From Bryobacterales bacterium (GTDB lineage: Bacteria > Acidobacteriota > Terriglobia > Bryobacterales > Bryobacteraceae): a stretch of 49,896 bases of DNA. Below are positions 17,888 to 28,962 of the stretch, one piece after another; positions within the stretch are counted from its first letter, which is position 1, and every line of letters begins with the position of its first letter. The stretch is from NCBI GenBank assembly GCA_947467395.1, contig CANIIC010000007.1, forward strand, positions 1 to 49,896, given 5' to 3'. Made by a program: the position numbers and the translations under genes. The notes beneath the pieces are model-generated. The model saw only the letters and a list, made by a program, of their open reading frames with translations. It made no database searches and had not been told where the DNA came from.

Positions 17888-18269
17888 GCGGCACGGCGAT
17901 CGCGAGCACCCAGCGCACCCACGCCAGGCTCAGTTTCTGAATGCCGCCCCAGGTCTGATAGGAGTAGCGCATCGCGCTGCGTACCATGAGGATTAAGGCT
18001 GCCCCGAGCAAGAGCGCGTGTGCTCCTGTGGTCGAGATCACCAGCGCGCCGAGCACCAGTTCGAGCAACGCCTGGGTGGTGGTTAGCTGAGGCGACGGTT
18101 CCTCCGCGGCCGGCCTGGCGATCCACGTGAGCACGGTGCCGCCGAGACGCGCCAAAACCAATGAAGCTGCTACAAATTGCCAGCGATGATGCTGCTCCGG
18201 CGCGGTGAACATCCAGCCCATCGCCAGCAAGTAGCTGAACGCCAGGGCTGCGTGCGTCGCTAGGCCCAC
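17841..18269 (-). CDS. Small membrane protein at the end of the btu operon
   Basis: 142 residues, not recognised. It has about three to four hydrophobic segments (THAALAFSYLLAMGWMF, FVAASLVLARLGGTVLTWIA, ALLELVLGALVISTTGAHALLLGAALI) and a C-terminal basic region. I chose the GTG at 18269 because GGAGAAG lies six bases upstream and it overlaps the btuC stop by ten bases; the ATG at 18299 has no ribosome site. Being coupled to btuC under a cobalamin riboswitch suggests a part in corrinoid uptake or processing, but this is context only. The 3' end overlaps the TolC gene (opposite strand). Confidence 0.6.
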   Translation of the reverse strand: MGLATHAALAFSYLLAMGWMFTAPEQHHRWQFVAASLVLARLGGTVLTWIARPAAEEPSPQLTTTQALLELVLGALVISTTGAHALLLGAALILMVRSAMRYSYQTWGGIQKLSLAWVRWVLAIAVPLIARLPESSLSSGGR

Positions 18270-19219
18270 AAGCTTCTCCGCTTGGACCGCAACAGCCACA
18301 GGAAGAACGGACCGCCCCCCATGGCAGTCAGCACACCCACGGGAATGTCGGTCGGCGGAAGCATGGTTCGAGAGAGCGTATCACACACAGCAAGGAACGC
18401 CGCACCCAGGAGGATGGAACACGGCATCAGCGTGCGATGATCGGCGCCGAACTTGAGTCGCAGCGCATGCGGCACGATCAGGCCGACGAAGCCGATGGGG
18501 CCAGTGAGCGCAGTCACCAGGCCCGTGAGCACGGAGCCCGCAATGTAGCCGAAGGTGGTCAACGCAGCGGTTGATACACCGCGCGAGGCCGCCCATTCTT
18601 CGCCGACCGCGAGCAGGTTCCACTGGGGCGCGCGCAGCGTGACGATCGCCATGACGGGCAACACGATCACGGCGAGCCAGGCGAGGGTCGAATACGGCAC
18701 AGCGTCCAGGCCACCCATCAGCCAGCGGGAGATCGCGAAGGATTGTGCGAAGGACGCGATGCTGTGAAGGAACAGGATGATCGCGAAGGCGATGCTGTTC
18801 ATCGTCACGCCGGTGAGTAACAGCGTAAAGGATGACATGCGGCGACCATCGACCGACATCGTGACGACAATGGCCAGCACCACCGCGGCACCGATCAACG
18901 AAGCAAATCCAGTTGCGCTGAACCCGAGGCAAATCGCGAGCACCGCACCCACGGAGGCACCGCTTGAGACGCCCAATGTGTAGGGTTCGGCCAGAGGATC
19001 GCGCAGCATGCACTGAAACAGCACGCCGGTGATCGACAAGGCCGCGCCGCCCAGCAAAGCCAGCAGCACGCGCGGCAAGCGGGCGTAAAAGAAGATCTCG
19101 TGATCCGGCGAGACTCCGGCGAAGGCGTTGGCAAGGTCGATATGCGTGCTGCCCACCAGTGGAGCAACGACGGCGACAACAATCACGATCAGCGCCGAGA
19201 TCGCGACGCTACCCTTCAT
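18260..19219 (-). CDS. btuC: Vitamin B12 / iron-siderophore type ABC permease (FecCD family)
   Basis: 319 residues with about ten membrane helices. FecCD landmarks are LPRVLLALLGGAALSITGVLFQ, 'DPLAEPYTLGVSSGASVGAV' and, near the C-terminus, GFVGLIVPHALRL. These are typical of BtuC/FhuB/FecD permeases. The ATG at 19219 overlaps the btuD stop by 11 bases; a GTG at 19234 would add five residues. The cobalamin riboswitch ahead of the operon argues for B12 or cobinamide as substrate rather than iron. Confidence 0.9.
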   Translation of the reverse strand: MKGSVAISALIVIVVAVVAPLVGSTHIDLANAFAGVSPDHEIFFYARLPRVLLALLGGAALSITGVLFQCMLRDPLAEPYTLGVSSGASVGAVLAICLGFSATGFASLIGAAVVLAIVVTMSVDGRRMSSFTLLLTGVTMNSIAFAIILFLHSIASFAQSFAISRWLMGGLDAVPYSTLAWLAVIVLPVMAIVTLRAPQWNLLAVGEEWAASRGVSTAALTTFGYIAGSVLTGLVTALTGPIGFVGLIVPHALRLKFGADHRTLMPCSILLGAAFLAVCDTLSRTMLPPTDIPVGVLTAMGGGPFFLWLLRSKRRSLWA

Positions 19220-19958
19220 AGACCATCCACGCACGGCCTTGCGGCGTCAATTGGAAGACCGCTCGCACGCCGAACACGGCTTCGATCGACGTGGGGTTCA
19301 GCACCTCGGCCGGAACGCCGTCCCCTGCAATCTGCCCATCTTCCATCATCATCACGCGATCGGAGAACTGGAGCGCCAGATTCAGATCATGCGTGACGGC
19401 GACCACCAACATTGTCTTGCCCAAGCGCGCCAGCAAACGATAGAGCGCCAGCTGATGCTTCAGATCCAAGTGCGTGGCAGGCTCATCCAGCAGCAACACT
19501 TTGGGCTCCTGTGCCAACGCCGCGGCCAGCACCACACGCTGCCGCTCGCCGCCGGAAAGGGCGCGGAAGTCACGTTCCTTGAGCGCCAGACAATCGGTGA
19601 TCGACATGGCCTGATCGGCCGCCGTGCGATCGTGCTCGGATTCAAACCAGCCGCCCGTGCGGGGCGTGCGTCCCATCAAGACAACTTCGCCGGCCGTGAA
19701 CGGAAACTCAATGCGTACCGACTGCGGGACATAGGCGACGTTTGAGGCGAACTCCGCGCGCGGACAATTGCGCAGTTCGCGGCCGGCGTACTTCAACGAT
19801 CCTTTATAGGGTGCGCGCAAGCCGGCGAGGATCCCGAGCAGCGTGGACTTCCCCGCTCCGTTGGGCCCGGCCAGAGTGATCAGGCCCTTCTGTGGCAGCT
19901 CAAACGAGGCGTCGCGCAGACCGTAGGAAAAACTGAGATGTGAGGCGAGGAAGCTCAT
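19209..19958 (-). CDS. btuD: Cobalamin ABC transporter ATPase
   Basis: 249 residues. The Walker A is GPNGAGKST, the signature is LSGGERQRVVLAAAL, the Walker B is VLLLDEPATHLD and the switch His lies in VAVTHDLN. I chose the ATG at 19958, which overlaps the btuF stop (ATGA); the longer frame back to 20096 would give a Cys/Arg-rich leader with no homology feel. It forms the transporter with BtuC and BtuF. Assignment to B12 rests on the riboswitch. Confidence 0.9.
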   Translation of the reverse strand: MSFLASHLSFSYGLRDASFELPQKGLITLAGPNGAGKSTLLGILAGLRAPYKGSLKYAGRELRNCPRAEFASNVAYVPQSVRIEFPFTAGEVVLMGRTPRTGGWFESEHDRTAADQAMSITDCLALKERDFRALSGGERQRVVLAAALAQEPKVLLLDEPATHLDLKHQLALYRLLARLGKTMLVVAVTHDLNLALQFSDRVMMMEDGQIAGDGVPAEVLNPTSIEAVFGVRAVFQLTPQGRAWMVYEG

Positions 19959-20833
19959 TTTGCCTCCGGATGAAACAGGGCAAAGAACGCATTGGCAGCG
20001 TCCACGACGCGGGGGCCGGGCACGACGAAAATGTCGGAAGCGACCGCGTGTACACGATGCGCCCGCACCGCACCCAGCGATGACATGCGATTCCACAGGC
20101 TCGCCACATTGCGCTTCTGGACATCGGTCACGCCGATCGTGTCGGCCATCTCGCCCATGTCGATGATCACGTCCGGATTCCGCGCCAGTACTTCTTCGAG
20201 CGAAACCTTCGGGTAGGCCGCGCGCGCGTCTTTGAACACATTCACGCCGCCAGCGATGTCGATGATCTCGTTCAAATACGAGGCCTCACCCGCCACCATC
20301 AGGCCGTCCAGGCTGCCCGGCATGCGTCCCACCACGAACATCATGCGGATGGGCTTCATCCCCGCCGACTTCGCCTTGATCGCGGCGAGCTGCTTGCGAA
20401 TCGAGTCCGCCAACTTGTCGGCCTTGGCTGTAGTGCCGGTGGCTTCCCCGACTTGCCGGAAGGAACGGTACAGCGCCGGGATGCCCTCCTGATCCAGTTC
20501 CAACACGCGCAAATGCAGAGCTTCAAGACGCTGCCGGAGTTGCACCGGGTTCGTCGGGATGATGACCAGCGTCGGCTTCATCCGCGCGATCACTTCCAGG
20601 TTCGGAGCCGCATAATCCCCGATCTGCGGCTTGCGCGAGGCCTCCGCCGGATAGCGACTGAAGCGGTCGACACCGACGATGTTGTCACCGAGTCCGAGTG
20701 CGTAGAGCAGTTCGGTGATCGAAGGCGCGGTCGAAACGATGCGCTGTGGAAGAAAGCGGTCCGTGGAGGTTTGAGCGAAGAGGCCCGGCGACAAAAGCGC
20801 GCAGGCGATGGCAAAGAAAAGGCGTGCAAACAT
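19955..20833 (-). CDS. btuF: Cobalamin-binding periplasmic protein BtuF-like
   Basis: 292 residues with a signal peptide (MFARLFFAIACALLSPGLFAQ). The mature part has the helical-backbone binding-protein fold: RIVSTAPSITELLYALG at the start is the BtuF/FhuD hallmark, followed by VGVDRFSRYP and NLEVIARMKPTLVI. I chose the ATG at 20833, which is preceded by AAGGGGAA and starts the signal peptide; the frame continues upstream but into the riboswitch. First gene of the operon, controlled by the riboswitch. No TonB-dependent receptor (BtuB) lies nearby. Confidence 0.88.
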   Translation of the reverse strand: MFARLFFAIACALLSPGLFAQTSTDRFLPQRIVSTAPSITELLYALGLGDNIVGVDRFSRYPAEASRKPQIGDYAAPNLEVIARMKPTLVIIPTNPVQLRQRLEALHLRVLELDQEGIPALYRSFRQVGEATGTTAKADKLADSIRKQLAAIKAKSAGMKPIRMMFVVGRMPGSLDGLMVAGEASYLNEIIDIAGGVNVFKDARAAYPKVSLEEVLARNPDVIIDMGEMADTIGVTDVQKRNVASLWNRMSSLGAVRAHRVHAVASDIFVVPGPRVVDAANAFFALFHPEAK

Positions 20834-20867
20834 GAGACGTTCCCCTTCGAAACGTGGCTTCACTACT

Positions 20868-21052
20868 AACGAAGGAACCGGTCTCCTGACTTCCGGCTGG
20901 GCCTGAATGGACGATCTTCCCACTTTCGCAGTGATCGCCCGGCCTGACTACTTGCCGGTTACAGTTGCGGGGCAGCGACGGACTTTCACCGTCTTCCCGA
21001 ACATTCCAACGCGTAAACTGTCTTGTTCAGAGTAGGTCTTCGGCAACCGGCG
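20868..21052 (-). promoter_or_regulatory. Cobalamin (AdoCbl) riboswitch
   Basis: Read on the minus strand, the segment holds the conserved core: GAAGACGGTGAAAGTCCGTC, then GCTGCCCCGCAACTGTAA, and near the 3' end the B12 box AAGTCAGGAGACCGG. The outer stem can form from CCGGTTGCCGAAG and the CGGTTCCTTCG near 20870-20885. It lies 35 bases before btuF and would switch off the btuFDC operon when cobalamin is plentiful. The rest of this gap (21053-21226) contains only leader sequence for the divergent secreted-protein gene, in which I see no clear motif. Confidence 0.95.
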
Positions 21053-23341: not shown

Positions 23342-23585
23342 GAGCCCGGCTGGCGTCTCTCGGCCACCGAGGCCGTCGCTCTCCAGCCCACGCCTCCTCC
23401 GCCTCCCGGCACCCCGACTTCAAAGTAAAGTAATTGAAAACAAGATACTTACAAGCATCACCATTCAACCCTGCTTCACGCCCATTCGCTGCACGATAGC
23501 GCCGTTCGATTCATTCCCGTAGGGCTTCAAAACTATGGGTCCTATACTGTACTTTCAGTTTATTCCACCCATTGGAGATCGAATC

Positions 23586-25667
23586 TTGAAGCCGATCAAG
23601 CATGTTGAAAAAGTAGTTTCCCTCGCCGCGAACGCCGCTTGGCACGTTTATGACGCTGTCAATTCGATGAAGGCGCCCACGCCTTCCTTCACGCCGAAGT
23701 GGTCGGACAAGCCGCTCCTCAAGAGCTGGGAAAAGCAGAAGCCGAAGCTCGGCTGGCCCCGCGAGACGGATTCGCTCTGTCCGAAGTGCGTTCCGGAGAT
23801 CCGCAACAAGATCATCAACGGCGAACTGCCGGTGGAGATCCTGAAGAACGAGAAGGCCGGCGAAATCAAGGCGCAGATCATCGAGCGCGACGGCAAGATC
23901 CTGATGGTGAAGGAATGCCCGATCCACGGCAAGTTTGAAGACTTGATGTCGATCGATCCGGCGTTCTCCAAGCACCTCGAAGACGTCTTCCCGGGCCGTG
24001 ACATCAAGGCTCACAACGACGAAAAGCTCCACAACCACGGTTCCTCGACCGTGACCCATGGCCGCGGCTCGGTTCTGACGATCGATCTGACGAACCGCTG
24101 CAACATGATGTGCGATCCGTGCTTCATGGACGCCAACCAGGTCGGCTTCGTGCACGAACTGACGTGGGAAGAAATCAAGGCCCTGCTGGACAACGCGCTC
24201 GAAATCAAGCCGCGCCGCCAGCTGTCGGTGCAGTTCTCCGGTGGCGAGCCCACCCTGTCGCCGTACTTCCTGGACGCCGTGCGCTATTGCCGCAAGATCG
24301 GCTACCAGTCGGTACAGGCTGCGACCAACGGTATCGAATTCGCCAAGCGTCCGGAATTCGCCAAGCAGGCCGCCGAAGCGGGTCTGCGCTACGCGTATCT
24401 GCAGTTTGACGGCATCGGCAACGAAGCCAACTCGCACCGCGCGATCGGCAACTTGTTCGACGTGAAGCTCCGCGCGATTGAGAACCTGCACTCGGCCGGT
24501 GTCGACATCGTCCCGGTGATCACGCTGATCAACGGCGTGAACAATGAGCAGGTGGGCGCGGTGGTGCGCTTCGCGCTCGACAACCCCAAGAAGATCCCGT
24601 TCTTGAGCTTCCAGCCCGTGTCCTTCACCGGCCGCGACGAAGAAGTGACCCCGGAACGCCGCGCCGCCCAGCGCTACACGCTGTCCCATCTGGCGCATGA
24701 CGTGAAGAACATGACCGGCCTCGGCGAACCGACCCGCGATTGGTTCCCGATCAGCTTCATGAGCACCTTCTCCGACTTCGCCGATCTGGTCCACGGACCG
24801 AACGCGGATTGGGGCCAGCTGTCCTGCGGCTGCCACCCGAACTGCGGTATCGGCATGGCCGTGATGTGCGACAAGGAAACCAAGGAATACGTTCCGGTGA
24901 CCGCGTTCCTGAACGCCGATCAGTTGGCGAAGGACGTCGCGCACATAAATGACATGGCGCGCAGCAAGAAGGCCAGCGTGTTCGCTGTGTCCCTCGCCCT
25001 GCTCCGCAACTACAACTCGTATGCGGCTCCCACGCACTTCCGCATTTCCGACCTGATCGCCAAGTTCGACAAGTGCTTCGGCATGACGGGCAAGAAGTAC
25101 GGCAAGGTGACCGGCGATCGTACGATGGCCGACATCGAAAAGCGCCGCGCTGACCGCTGGAACTTCCTCTTCGTCGCCGGCATGTGGTTCCAGGATCTGT
25201 TCAACTACGACTTCCGCCGTACCGAACAGTGCATCATCCCCTACGCCACGCAGGAAGGCGAAATCAGCTTCTGCGCGTATAACACCGGTGTGGGCTGGCG
25301 CAATATCGTGGAAAAGATGCACATGACCGCCACGCTGACCAAGTGGTACGAAGAAAACGGCCGTCATGAAATCATCGCCGGTGGCAAGAACGTCAACCTG
25401 CCCAGCAAGGAACATCGCCTGGTGCTGAACATGGAAGACGTGAACAAGGGCCGCCAGCACGATCTGGACGACGCGGGCATCGCCAAGACGGCTCGTGAAG
25501 AAAAGAAGCGTGCGCGTGACCAGAAGCTGAAGGACGAGCAGATGATGAAGCTCTACAAGCAGCACGTGCTCGGCGAAAAGCCGCAGGACAACTTCGTTTC
25601 GCTGGATGCGATTGCTCCGGCTCCGAAGAAGGACGCGGACAAGGAAGTCGGCTCGTTCGGAGACTAG
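23586..25667 (+). CDS. Radical SAM enzyme of the MJ0619/Tes-Mss type
   Basis: 693 residues from TTG 23586, which has GGAG eight bases upstream; an ATG at 23535 would add 17 residues but lacks a good site and has a TATACT box inside. The radical SAM motif is CNMMCDPC (Cys172, 176, 179). Ahead of it is a rubredoxin-like pair CPKC (65-68) and CPIHG (111). Downstream are further Cys motifs, CGCHPNCG and a segment FQDLFNYDFRR...CIIPYATQEG...FCAYN. This arrangement matches the archaeal MJ0619/Tes family, which joins lipid chains. Bacterial relatives (Mss) are linked to membrane-spanning diabolic acids, known in Acidobacteria. The substrate is inferred. The last 100 residues are Lys-rich and charged. 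Confidence 0.82.
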   Translation: MKPIKHVEKVVSLAANAAWHVYDAVNSMKAPTPSFTPKWSDKPLLKSWEKQKPKLGWPRETDSLCPKCVPEIRNKIINGELPVEILKNEKAGEIKAQIIERDGKILMVKECPIHGKFEDLMSIDPAFSKHLEDVFPGRDIKAHNDEKLHNHGSSTVTHGRGSVLTIDLTNRCNMMCDPCFMDANQVGFVHELTWEEIKALLDNALEIKPRRQLSVQFSGGEPTLSPYFLDAVRYCRKIGYQSVQAATNGIEFAKRPEFAKQAAEAGLRYAYLQFDGIGNEANSHRAIGNLFDVKLRAIENLHSAGVDIVPVITLINGVNNEQVGAVVRFALDNPKKIPFLSFQPVSFTGRDEEVTPERRAAQRYTLSHLAHDVKNMTGLGEPTRDWFPISFMSTFSDFADLVHGPNADWGQLSCGCHPNCGIGMAVMCDKETKEYVPVTAFLNADQLAKDVAHINDMARSKKASVFAVSLALLRNYNSYAAPTHFRISDLIAKFDKCFGMTGKKYGKVTGDRTMADIEKRRADRWNFLFVAGMWFQDLFNYDFRRTEQCIIPYATQEGEISFCAYNTGVGWRNIVEKMHMTATLTKWYEENGRHEIIAGGKNVNLPSKEHRLVLNMEDVNKGRQHDLDDAGIAKTAREEKKRARDQKLKDEQMMKLYKQHVLGEKPQDNFVSLDAIAPAPKKDADKEVGSFGD

Positions 25668-25691
25668 TTCGGAAGTAGCTTCAAAGGGTCG

Positions 25692-25723
25692 AAGGCCGGA
25701 TGCGAAAGCGTCCGGCCTTTCTG
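25692..25723 (+). terminator. Rho-independent terminator after the radical SAM gene
   Basis: A 12-bp stem AAGGCCGGATGC / GCGTCCGGCCTT (one G-U pair) closes a GAAA tetraloop, followed by TCTGTTTCT. It lies 25 bases past the stop codon. Confidence 0.85.
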
Positions 25724-25738
25724 TTTCTATAAAGGGAT

Positions 25739-26917
25739 ATGTTACAAACTCTGTGGCTCGGCATCTTCGTATTGGCTCCGCTGTGGGCCCAGAGTCCCGC
25801 AGCAGTCGCGAGCGTGGTGGCCGGGGAGTTGGCTACGGGCAAGTACGCCGAGGTGTATGCGCGCTTCACGCCACAGATGAGGGCGGCATTGCCGGAGGCG
25901 ATGGTGCGCACGTTGCTCGCGCAACAGTTATTCGCCGGGGCGGGTGGTTTCGAGGCGGTCGAGGGCGAGTCGCGGTGTCAGGCGGCGCAGGGTTTCGATG
26001 CGTGCGATGTAACGGTGCGGTTCGAGGGTGCTCGGGTGCGAGTGTTGGTGGCGCTAGATGCGGAGAATCGCGTAGGCGGCCTTCGGTTGCTGGGTCGCGA
26101 GCTGCGGGAGACGGCTCCGGCAACGCTGCATGTTTCCGCAGGTGCCATTTCCCTGCCCGCATATCTCACTCTTCCGCAGACGACGGGGCCGCATCCATTG
26201 TTTGTGCTAGTACACGGATCGGGACCCAACGATGCGGATGAAACGATCGGGCCGAACAAGCCGTTTCGCGATCTAGCGGAGGGCTTAGCCGCGCGCGGGG
26301 TGGCGACGTTGCGTTACGACAAGCGGACGCATGTATCGAGCAGCGCTCCTGCGGCGAACTTCGATGAGGAAGTGATCGACGATGCACTGGCGGCGGTGAA
26401 GCTGGCTCAGGCACGGGACGGCGTCGACCCGAAGCGCGTGTTTGTGTTGGGGCACAGCCTGGGAGGGTATCTGGCTCCGCACATCGCCTCGCGGGATGCG
26501 GCGGTACGCGGCATCGTGATCCTGGCGGGTAACAACCGGCCGATGCGCGAGATCCTGATGGAACAGGTCCGGCACTTGAGCGGTTCGGATACAGGGTTTG
26601 AGGCGGCGTGGAACTCGCTTCCCCGGCACTATCGCGAGGGGCTGCCTAACTATGATCCGTTGCTGACAGCGCGGCAACTGGCTGCTCCGATTCTGGTGTT
26701 GCAGGGGGCTCGCGACTATCAGGTGACGACGGTGGATTATGAACGATGGAAGTCCGCGCTGAGCGAGCGCAGGGATAATGAGTTCCACTTGTACCCAGCG
26801 TTGAATCATCTGTTCCTCGCGGGAGCGGGCGTCTCGATGCCGGCGGAGTACAACGTCTTGTCGCACATTCCGGCAGAGGTCCTGGATGATCTCGCGGCGT
26901 GGGTGAAGGCGCACTAA
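25739..26917 (+). CDS. Exported alpha/beta hydrolase with N-terminal DUF3887-like domain
   Basis: 392 residues. A signal peptide (MLQTLWLGIFVLAPLWAQ) is followed by a DUF3887-like alpha+beta domain (about 20-115), then a serine hydrolase domain. The oxyanion region is LVHGSGPND, the nucleophile elbow is GHSLGGY, the acid lies near GARDYQV, and the His is in LNHLF. Related proteins are esterases or acyl-peptide hydrolases of the dienelactone-hydrolase superfamily. The natural substrate is unknown. The next gene, one base after the stop, repeats the N-terminal domain alone. Confidence 0.85.
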   Translation: MLQTLWLGIFVLAPLWAQSPAAVASVVAGELATGKYAEVYARFTPQMRAALPEAMVRTLLAQQLFAGAGGFEAVEGESRCQAAQGFDACDVTVRFEGARVRVLVALDAENRVGGLRLLGRELRETAPATLHVSAGAISLPAYLTLPQTTGPHPLFVLVHGSGPNDADETIGPNKPFRDLAEGLAARGVATLRYDKRTHVSSSAPAANFDEEVIDDALAAVKLAQARDGVDPKRVFVLGHSLGGYLAPHIASRDAAVRGIVILAGNNRPMREILMEQVRHLSGSDTGFEAAWNSLPRHYREGLPNYDPLLTARQLAAPILVLQGARDYQVTTVDYERWKSALSERRDNEFHLYPALNHLFLAGAGVSMPAEYNVLSHIPAEVLDDLAAWVKAH

Positions 26918-26918
26918 A

Positions 26919-27347
26919 ATGAATCGGACTGCGCGGACCGGCGTCCCAGGGGGTGTGATGATCAGAATGCTGCTTCGTTCTTCGTTGTTCGTCCTGCTGG
27001 GGGTGGGTGAAGCTCTGGCGCAAGCTGCCGAGGCCTCGGCCATCGCACGCGCTGCGGCGACGGAGTTGGGCGAAGGACGCTCTGCGGCCCTGCATGCTCG
27101 GCTGACGGACGATCTGAAAGTCGCATTGAGTGAGGATTTATTGCGGGATCCGTTGATCAAGGATCTGGTGGCCGGGGCGGGGTTGTTTGAGAAGATCGAC
27201 GCGGCTCCGGTGTGCCGCGCGTCACAGGGGCCGCAGATGTGTGTGGTGCCGATGTTGTACGCGAAGGCTCGGATCCGGGTGCGATTTGCGATCGATGCAG
27301 CAGGGCGAGTGGCGGGGATCTATGTGGAGGGGCGCGAGGCTCGGTAG
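26919..27347 (+). CDS. Stand-alone DUF3887-like secreted protein
   Basis: 142 residues. After a signal peptide (MIRMLLRSSLFVLLGVGEALAQ) it repeats the domain found at the N-terminus of the hydrolase just upstream. Both share the same order of features: a helix with 'ARLT/ARFT' then D/Q-x-hydrophobic-x-AL, a 'LVAGAGLFEKID' versus 'LFAGAGGFEAVE' block, a C-x-A-x-QG segment and 'RVRFAIDAAGRVAGI' versus 'RVLVALDAENRVGGL'. It is therefore a tandem paralogue lacking the hydrolase part. The ATG at 26919 is one base after the upstream stop; ATG 26958 or 26967 are alternatives close to the hydrophobic stretch. It may bind or regulate the hydrolase. Confidence 0.72.
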   Translation: MNRTARTGVPGGVMIRMLLRSSLFVLLGVGEALAQAAEASAIARAAATELGEGRSAALHARLTDDLKVALSEDLLRDPLIKDLVAGAGLFEKIDAAPVCRASQGPQMCVVPMLYAKARIRVRFAIDAAGRVAGIYVEGREAR

Positions 27348-27689: not shown

Positions 27690-27738
27690 GGGAGCTTTTA
27701 TTGTAGCGTGAATGGCACGTGTTACGCTGGACTCGGTC

Positions 27739-28962
27739 ATGCGCTTTCTTGTCGCCCTGATTTTGCTGGCGGGTTCCGCCGTTGCGCAGACTTCCCCGCT
27801 CTTCTCCCAAGTGGACGAAATGCTGGCATCGCTGTCAAAGATCACCGGCTGGAAGGTGAAGCGGAAGATCCCCAGCGAGATCCTTACCAAAGACAAGTTC
27901 TCCAAGATGTTGGACGAAAGCGTCCGCGAGGCGGAGAAAGACAAAGAAACCCACGCGGCGGAGCTGACGCTGAAGATGTTCGGGCTGGTGCCGCGGGACT
28001 TCCAACTGGCTCGAGAGTCGGCGAACCTGATGGAGGAGCAGGCGGCGGCCTTCTACGACTTCCAGAAGAAGCGCCTGTACGTCCTGGAATCGACCCCCGA
28101 TGGGCAGGAGCAGCGCATCGCGCTGGCGCACGAACTGGCGCATGCTTTGGCAGACCAACAATTCGGGATCCGCAAATATCTGAAGGCAGCGAAGGATGAC
28201 GATGCGGTCACGGCGCGGCAGTCGGTGATCGAGGGTCAGGCGAGCTGGCTGAGTTGGGCGTACATGGTAGGCAAGGCGACGGGTCGAACGGAGGTCCCGC
28301 AATCATTGCTGGATCAGTTGGCAACCGTGGGCGGAACAGGGGAGCAGTTCCCTGTGCTGACACAGACTCCTTTGTACATGCGCGAATCGCTGACGTTCCC
28401 CTACACCGAAGGCATGCGGTTTCAGGATGCCGTCTATCGCAAACTGGGCATGGGCGCGTTTGACCGGGTTTTCCGCGAAGCTCCACTGAGCACGCAAGAG
28501 ATTCTGCATCCAGAGGCCTACGCGGACAACCAGATCCCCACGCATCCGGAGTTGCCGAAGGCGATTCCGGGAGTCGATCTGGGGCGCATGAAGCTGCTGG
28601 TGAGTGGAGATGTGGGCGAGTTCGATTATTCGGTGATGCTGCGGCAATATGTGAAGGGCGTCGATGGACGGCAGATTGCCCGGCACTGGCGCGGGGCGAC
28701 GTTCCGGCTGTATGAGGACAAGCAGACGAAGGCTCCGCTGCTGATGCACGCATCGGAGTGGGACTCGCCAGCCGCGGCACAGGCGTTCTTCCGGGCATAT
28801 GGCGAGGTGCTGAAGGCGAAATCCAAGAAGAGCGAAATCCGGCGGTTGGGTGAGGCTGAGATCGAAGGATCGGGCGATACCGGGGAATTTTCGTTACGGA
28901 TTTCCGGGACTAGCGTCCTTTGTATAGAAGGGATCCCCGCGTCCGCGTCCCGGGGCAAATAA
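27739..28962 (+). CDS. Secreted HEXXH zinc metallopeptidase-like protein
   Basis: 407 residues. The ATG at 27739 starts a signal peptide (MRFLVALILLAGSAVAQ); an upstream in-frame ATG at 27712 would add nine polar residues. The zinc motif is HELAH (His131, Glu132, His135), followed by ADQQFG and, about 40 residues on, VIEGQASWLSW, whose Glu could be the third ligand as in gluzincins. A Tyr-rich strand AAFYDFQKKRLYVL precedes the motif, as usual for such enzymes. It would act in the periplasm. The substrate is unknown. The thioredoxin-like gene follows 18 bases later. Confidence 0.82.
   Translation: MRFLVALILLAGSAVAQTSPLFSQVDEMLASLSKITGWKVKRKIPSEILTKDKFSKMLDESVREAEKDKETHAAELTLKMFGLVPRDFQLARESANLMEEQAAAFYDFQKKRLYVLESTPDGQEQRIALAHELAHALADQQFGIRKYLKAAKDDDAVTARQSVIEGQASWLSWAYMVGKATGRTEVPQSLLDQLATVGGTGEQFPVLTQTPLYMRESLTFPYTEGMRFQDAVYRKLGMGAFDRVFREAPLSTQEILHPEAYADNQIPTHPELPKAIPGVDLGRMKLLVSGDVGEFDYSVMLRQYVKGVDGRQIARHWRGATFRLYEDKQTKAPLLMHASEWDSPAAAQAFFRAYGEVLKAKSKKSEIRRLGEAEIEGSGDTGEFSLRISGTSVLCIEGIPASASRGK

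Follow-up and report, generated by a model that had tools for sequence, protein, structure and literature searches.

Iso-diabolic acid is a membrane-spanning fatty acid typical of Acidobacteria and a suspected precursor of the brGDGTs that are used as temperature and pH proxies. Archaeal Tes is an enzyme that joins two membrane lipid tails. A gene on contig CANIIC010000007.1 of a Bryobacterales soil bacterium, whose genome measures 4.07 Mb at 95.7% completeness, encodes a radical SAM protein that resembles Tes, and it raises the question of whether this protein makes a membrane-spanning lipid and, if so, which one. We analysed the stretch of 49,896 nucleotides that contains the gene (the window) together with related genomes and sequences. 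In the literature as excerpted here, the acidobacterial coupling enzyme has so far been a hypothesis: acidobacterial Tes homologs and a suggested role for them in brGDGT formation are already published (PMC10087280, PMC8941075), Halamka describes the enzyme as still unknown in earlier proposals for acidobacterial coupling (PMC10087280), and the consulted part of a Black Sea paper treats the activity of bacterial Tes homologs as unconfirmed.

The coding sequence of this protein, designated type A below, occupies positions 23586-25667 on the forward strand and yields 693 aa when translation begins at a TTG codon. It lies within an open frame of 710 codons (23535-25667, forward), and an in-frame ATG at 23535, upstream of the TTG, would give a protein of 710 aa. 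Direct reading of the sequence reveals a Shine-Dalgarno-like GGAGA (23574-23578, forward) separated from the TTG by a 7-nt spacer, and several relatives, whose own starts were picked by script, align a Met with the TTG column; these two observations suggest that TTG 23586 is probably the true start. A hairpin of 13 pairs with a T-rich tail, resembling an intrinsic terminator, follows the gene (25691-25720, forward), but upstream the scan of the stretch yielded neither a forward-strand terminator-like site nor a sigma-70 promoter, so that the gene, described by the first-pass annotation as standing alone between terminators, is so bounded on its downstream side only. The terminator-like sites in the scanned stretch number five against 3.1 (sd 1.9) in shuffled sequence, which is not clearly above expectation. 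The gene has a GC content of 0.58, 0.38 and 0.84 at codon positions 1 to 3, and a 684-aa open frame without a family match runs antisense to it (23511-25565, reverse strand), probably as a shadow of the high GC at third codon positions.

Read on the 710-codon frame, which also supplies the residue numbers used here, the protein contains the blocks by which it had been recognized initially, namely CPKC...CPIHG, CX3CX2C, CGCHPNCG (residues 431-438) and FQDLFNYD...CIIPYATQEG...FCAYN (residues 552-583). One attribution requires correction: MJ0619, the Tes (GDGT-MAS) of Methanocaldococcus jannaschii, has SSHQHCG, and CGCHPNCG belongs with the acidobacterial subfamily. Pfam models identify Radical_SAM (E 4.3e-22) and the zinc ribbon PF23545 (HMPTM; E 1.4e-13), the latter passing its gathering score of 27 with 50.6 bits; the name of this domain is presumably an echo of an older function claim for MJ0619. 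The best NCBIfam model is Tes (NF045702), at 312.4 bits and thus below its equivalog cut-off of 450, and the TrsS model NF045646 likewise scores 204 bits against a cut-off of 490. Among solved structures, the single sequence matches 7TOL at E 2.4e-61, with the next solved family at E 1.7e-5, and a profile of 16 sequences matches GDGT-MAS (7TOL/7TOM) at E 3.4e-86, with the next entry at 5.4e-5.

Relatives of the protein within the Acidobacteriota include type A (about 616-736 aa in complete rows), type B (about 550 aa, with 35-39% identity to the query by tblastn), three archaeal-like rows for which T is a label of convenience, and six TrsS-like rows (S). The A and B labels were first set by the same cluster motif that is counted below; a split made independently of the motif, by BLASTP identity to the query, places type A rows at 46.6-100% and all others at 24.8-34.8%. 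Identity to MJ0619 is 28.6-32.1% for type A and 38.0-44.4% for type B. In an NCBIfam scan that covered eight family proteins, three B rows (487-574 bits) and two T rows (607-619 bits) all exceed the Tes cut-off of 450, a divergent type A row reaches 291 bits on this model, and two S rows score 257-272 bits on Tes and best on TrsS, at 309-320 bits, below the cut-off of 490.

We built a tree of 48 rows, rooted by our own choice on the six TrsS-like S rows. The 24 type A rows in it form one clade (support 100/100) whose stem measures 1.08 changes per column, and this clade is nested inside the Tes clade that holds MJ0619, on a starred branch that separates 42 rows from six. The placement of MJ0619 itself (90/58) is not starred. 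Type B is not one clade: 12 of its rows group together, and L066 and L067, which keep the N-terminal cluster motif, lie beside type A; the long rows of the tree are L076, L079 and L066. The protein thus groups with Tes and MJ0619, apart from the other radical SAM families, and TrsS-like proteins fall outside this clade, which together with the 7TOL/7TOM matches bears out the initial assignment to this family. The description of the protein as Tes-like holds in the sense of clade membership and fails if taken to mean Tes itself, since a score below the Tes cut-off and the absence of the N-terminal [Fe4S4] ligands point to a derived subfamily.

To compare cofactor sites, we aligned MJ0619, with ligand numbers taken from the consulted part of PMC9433317, with 96 acidobacterial family members (73 type A, 14 B, 3 T and 6 S; the partial rows L059, L063 and L065 and two window duplicates were left out). 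The rubredoxin-like site, C82, C85, C128 and H131 (23778-23927, forward), aligns with C9, C12, C33 and H36 of MJ0619, and within type A each Cys is kept in 73/73 rows and the His in 72/73. The radical SAM motif C189-X3-C193-X2-C196 (24099-24122, forward), identified by both Pfam and the alignment, is present in 73/73 type A rows, as are the residues corresponding to F106, Q268, S271 and R275 of MJ0619 (SAM contacts, loop); R210, another SAM contact, is not conserved in type A in this alignment. At the C-terminal cluster, the block comprising M550, C566 and C580 (25182-25274, forward) is intact, with M550 corresponding to Met439, which excerpts of PMC9433317 describe as the labile Met of the MJ0619 C-terminal cluster. 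Within CGCHPNCG (24825-24848, forward), C437 aligns with MJ0619 C338. The columns of C338, C455, C470 and M439 are kept in 73/73 type A, 14/14 B and 3/3 T rows, and to judge from this conservation the three Cys (C437, C566 and C580 in the window protein) would be the Cys ligands of the C-terminal, lipid-coupling cluster. In the six S rows these four columns are occupied 1, 0, 0 and 2 times, respectively; all six have a Cys beside the C455 column, so the alignment of S may be shifted there.

Type A differs from the remaining family members at the N-terminal [Fe4S4] cluster. The ligands C73, C77, C80 and H83 of MJ0619 are absent in 73/73 type A rows and present in the 23 other acidobacterial rows (14/14 B, 3/3 T and 6/6 S). 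The window protein has a gap, H168, S171 and T174 in these columns, and the place of the cluster loop (24027-24056, forward) contains H166 and H168, which are invariant in type A. C431 is found in 73/73 type A rows and also in L067; rows of B, T and MJ0619 number 18, and 10 of them hold Cys in the C433 column. The Tes-like L067 (genome G209) combines the N-terminal cluster motif with CSCHTNC and is in this respect intermediate between the types; as a protein with both the [Fe4S4]N ligands and a CxCHxxC, it indicates that the CxC need not compensate for cluster loss. The apparent loss of the N-terminal cluster might reflect a changed reaction.

An AlphaFold2 model of the 693-aa protein (mean pLDDT 68, pTM 0.75) agrees with the sequence comparisons. 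Its best Foldseek match is 7TOM (E 1.1e-21), and a fold comparison with 7TOM gives Z 20.2 and an rmsd of 4.2 over 434 residues; the next match outside the 7TOL/7TOM pair is MoaA, at Z 14.8. The model is weak at the catalytic loops, parts of which fall below pLDDT 50 (model residues 139-166, 168-189, 409-419 and 542-593). An N-terminal helix at residues 19-45 (23589-23669, forward; model residues 3-26) is predicted at pLDDT 76-93. Its hydrophobic moment gives a weak signal (shuffle p 0.01, for an 18-mer that was chosen as the maximum and begins before the TTG); the predicted helix is perhaps amphipathic and may bring the enzyme to the membrane.

Type A is widespread in the phylum. In a 395-genome sample, for which a completeness of at least 90 was set and no more than two candidates per genome were scored, 207 match at E 1e-25, and classing by best E-value gives about 181 genomes with type A (E 1e-100 or better), 17 with type B only, three with T and six with S. 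Within the window's class, each of the 54 genomes listed, its own included, matches at the type A level. The non-matching genomes are listed for 20 of 188, in order of kinship and from outside the class onward, and we infer that there is no class-mate without type A. In the window's family, sampled as 124 genomes at 95% completeness or above, 120 match at 1e-60 and 116 have type A, some in pieces; type B occurs in 24, four of them with type B only (G017, G037, G066 and G096), and four others (G097, G521, G527 and G560) gave no match at 1e-60. The family holding Edaphobacter, so named because the type A protein of an Edaphobacter MAG is 95.7% identical to that of one of its members, has type A in 49/49 sampled genomes, with a further protein above the Tes cut-off in three and six more weaker matches (178-248 bits) that are unclassified.

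A single Tes-model match at E 1e-40 was obtained in each of eight named genomes or MAGs, with Acidipila rosea, Acidipila sp. EB88 and the Edaphobacter MAG among them; none exceeds the Tes cut-off, and all reach E 2.6e-92 or better. The T. maritima control has no Tes-model match at E 1e-40 and no TrsS-model match at 1e-25; relaxed to E 1e-10, the Tes model matches 14/14 control genomes and is thus generic. Plasmids gave distant matches alone (26-31% identity in five records). Among the best 80 of 582 confirmed stretches in a scan of named records, the best-matching relatives are for the most part MAGs with Bryobacterales, Terriglobia or Acidobacteria in the title, and every title is acidobacterial except that of L104, a public MAG record titled Bordetella parapertussis (HRS-HS12-bin-180). 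The type A gene of L104 matches at 100% identity the one in G024, which belongs to the window's genus, and the title looks like a mislabel.

The genes around type A provide a partial view of its possible partners. PF09989, a domain that we take to belong to PlsA/Ger-type proteins, is present in the T. maritima control, whereas a search of the host did not find it. It occurs in 55/124 genomes of the window's family, and the 116 family genomes with type A divide into 51 with and 65 without it, revealing no tie between the two. One Ger-like PF09989 subgroup, in contrast, is present in 24/24 type B genomes versus 2/100 others (Fisher p 1.2e-23, with relatedness ignored), and the two exceptions are congeneric with a genome carrying both. 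Membership in this subgroup was assigned in 26 genomes, 11 by sequence (69-100% identity to one reference) and 15 by score and frame length. The one member scanned is a protein of 1035 aa with two PF01869 stretches and PF09989; two PF01869 domains are given as a mark of Ger in the consulted part of PMC13274423.

Among loci picked for closeness of the two types, the A and B genes are same-strand neighbours in L221, L224 and L225, which represent two families; in L222 and L223 they are 3-6 kb apart. Both types share a contig in 2/20 genomes of the window's family that have both, and in 3/3 such genomes of the Edaphobacter-holding family. In L201 and L202, the gene immediately before type A is a frame of 1239 or 1222 aa with two PF01869 stretches and PF09989, and in L203 a 1285-aa frame with the same domains lies two genes away on the other strand; a PF09989 gene within 10 kb of type A is a minority pattern, seen in 3/51 genomes having both. 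A radical SAM protein of 373-379 aa occurs in L202 and L203, and a 577-604-aa frame without a Pfam match in all three loci. By gene content, the L201-L203 cluster is a possible membrane-spanning ether lipid cassette.

No conserved lipid operon surrounds type A among 80 named loci (the best 80 of 582). Within the same set, the genes that flank type A in the window reappear chiefly in its closest relatives, L103-L108, which led us to reject an operon reading; elsewhere these genes match ABC ATPases and, in one case, a hydrolase at a weak score. An opposite-strand gene, presumably QueG-like, is the most frequent neighbour, occurring in 18/80 loci including L117 at distances up to 4.5 kb. In the window itself, genes for a FecCD permease, an ABC ATPase and a BtuF/TroA-like binding protein (18260-20923, reverse) probably specify an iron or cobalamin importer. 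Downstream of type A (25739-27347, forward) lie an EstD-like hydrolase of 392 aa, which scores under the cut-off of its model, and a 142-aa protein whose sole match, to DUF3887, is weak and which resembles a truncated tandem copy; these are followed by a 416-aa protein (27712-28962, forward) that matches a Hvo_1808 surface protein model at 118 bits against a cut-off of 200.

We consider it likely, with considerable room for doubt, that type A descends from Tes and works in Acidobacteriota as a radical SAM lipid synthase, coupling iso-C15 chains tail to tail to form iso-diabolic acid. The present analysis establishes the family, the cofactor residues, the distribution and the gene neighbours; chemistry, substrate and product are in this proposal transferred from MJ0619 and from lipid reports. 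Two phospholipids would place their iso-C15 acyl tails in hydrophobic pockets of type A; a 5′-deoxyadenosyl radical generated at the SAM cluster would take a hydrogen atom near the end of one tail; and the resulting carbon radical would be stored through a C-S bond to the C-terminal [Fe4S4] cluster until a second SAM cleavage gave the partner radical, whereupon the two tails would be joined by a C(sp3)-C(sp3) bond. The product would be ester-bound iso-diabolic acid spanning the membrane, and type B with its Ger-like protein, where also present, would constitute the ether (brGDGT) branch. As 65 of the 116 type A genomes, as well as the host, lack PF09989, such a partner appears to be unneeded, as expected for an ester-bound product. 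A membrane-spanning-lipid role, as first suggested for this gene, fits the distribution, and in a minority of genomes the gene neighbours as well.

Published profiles, as excerpted and from few named lineages, are consistent with this assignment. Iso-diabolic acid accounts for 11.8-30.4% of fatty acids in six Edaphobacter strains (26.4% in E. aggregans), in a report whose two new strains are described as aerobic growers (PMC11354219), and for 26.8-49.2% in five Occallatibacter/Terracidiphilus profiles (PMC12935467); it makes up at least 25% in 10/11 acidobacterial strains profiled (PMC11354219, PMC12935467). The one Tes homolog reported for E. aggregans has 32% identity (PMC8941075), within the 28.6-32.1% that type A shows to MJ0619, and is thus probably type A. 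The top homologs of Koribacter and Solibacter, at 42% and 40% (PMC8941075), are by the same measure probably type B; for all three assignments the reservation applies that this report may have used another Tes query.

Solibacter usitatus, which we take to belong to the same order as the host, is a possible counter-example to type A as the iso-diabolic acid synthase. The consulted part of PMC10087280 credits it with two Tes homologs, an estimated 10-47% tetraethers and much brGDGT, and with no iso-diabolic acid. An alternative, which we regard as unlikely yet the most serious of those weighed, is that type A mainly joins iso-C15 diethers into brGDGTs, or acts on esters and ethers alike. E. aggregans, with its single reported homolog, also makes brGDGTs at low oxygen (PMC8941075, in excerpt), a Ger-like gene lies beside type A in genomes G010 and G081 and near it in G048, and Tes is reported to bind ester lipids too (PMC13274423, PMC9433317, both in part). 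Against this stand the 65/116 type A genomes without PF09989 (this being the one ether marker searched, an ElbD-type ether route may exist in them) and the tie of one Ger-like protein to type B rather than A (24/24 genomes, relatedness ignored).

Less probable still is that type A acts on lipid tails to give another product, whether as a partner of type B, by mid-chain methylation or desaturation, or through a Gms-like cross-link. The absence of the [Fe4S4]N ligands, the stem of 1.08 changes per column and the A-B adjacency in L221, L224 and L225 would suit such a role, but the Cys positions of the coupling cluster and its labile Met are kept, and the 46/49 genomes of the Edaphobacter-holding family that have type A without a match above the Tes cut-off argue that it is no obligate partner of B. 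That type A is no lipid enzyme at all, for instance a pterin or RiPP-type radical SAM protein, is very improbable: the PF23545 name, which refers to a pterin methyltransferase, and generic radical SAM matches speak for it, but fold and sequence similarity to GDGT-MAS lie far above those to other solved families, and the work of Lloyd et al. did not bear out the pterin function claimed for MJ0619 (PMC9433317, in part), so that we rejected pterin methyltransferase as a function.

Beyond iso-C15 coupling by type A, a broader hypothesis is conceivable, which we hold only tentatively and with more doubt than belief: type A would be the phylum-wide iso-diabolic acid synthase of the Acidobacteriota and an oxygen-adapted Tes that shed its surface N-terminal cluster on the stem of the clade, with type B and its Ger-like protein as a separate brGDGT branch. 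The invariant HxH left behind, perhaps together with C431/C433 as a Cys2His2 replacement, may in this view hold a simpler metal site. If this is true, cluster loss would allow cells that grow aerobically to couple lipids by a radical route through a C(sp3)-C(sp3) bond, and the source problem of the paleoclimate proxy would split into two gene markers. The near-universal type A and the patchy, Ger-linked type B provide two testable gene-to-lipid assignments, and raise the question of whether Tes chemistry can proceed with one cluster fewer. In titles and abstract openings of the open-licence literature, we found neither a division of the acidobacterial homologs into two types nor a missing N-terminal cluster.

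Compared with known systems, type A shares with MJ0619, at 31% identity, the rubredoxin-like site, the radical SAM core and the C-terminal cluster block. The N-terminal helix and a C-terminal tail are on the type A side; MJ0619 begins almost at its rubredoxin-like site, without a counterpart of the helix. The homologs of Tes that Zeng 2022 and Halamka 2022 reported from acidobacteria fall in the same clade, adjoin type A in a few genomes, and are in some cases probably type B, which unlike type A keeps the N-terminal cluster ligands (14/14), is patchy and is tied to a Ger-like protein. Mss, from Sahonero-Canavesi 2022, is said to be the membrane-spanning lipid synthase of Thermotoga maritima. 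It resembles type A in its proposed chemistry, the tail-to-tail coupling of fatty acyl chains, and the excerpted homology screen for Mss used thresholds of >30% identity and E 1e-30 (PMC13274423). Gms, the GMGT synthase, is also a radical SAM enzyme and links lipid chains by a C(sp3)-C(sp3) bond; in the consulted part of its description it is set apart by a SPASM domain and by AuxI and AuxII clusters modelled as fully Cys ligated, and its authors separate it from Tes (PMC11186832).
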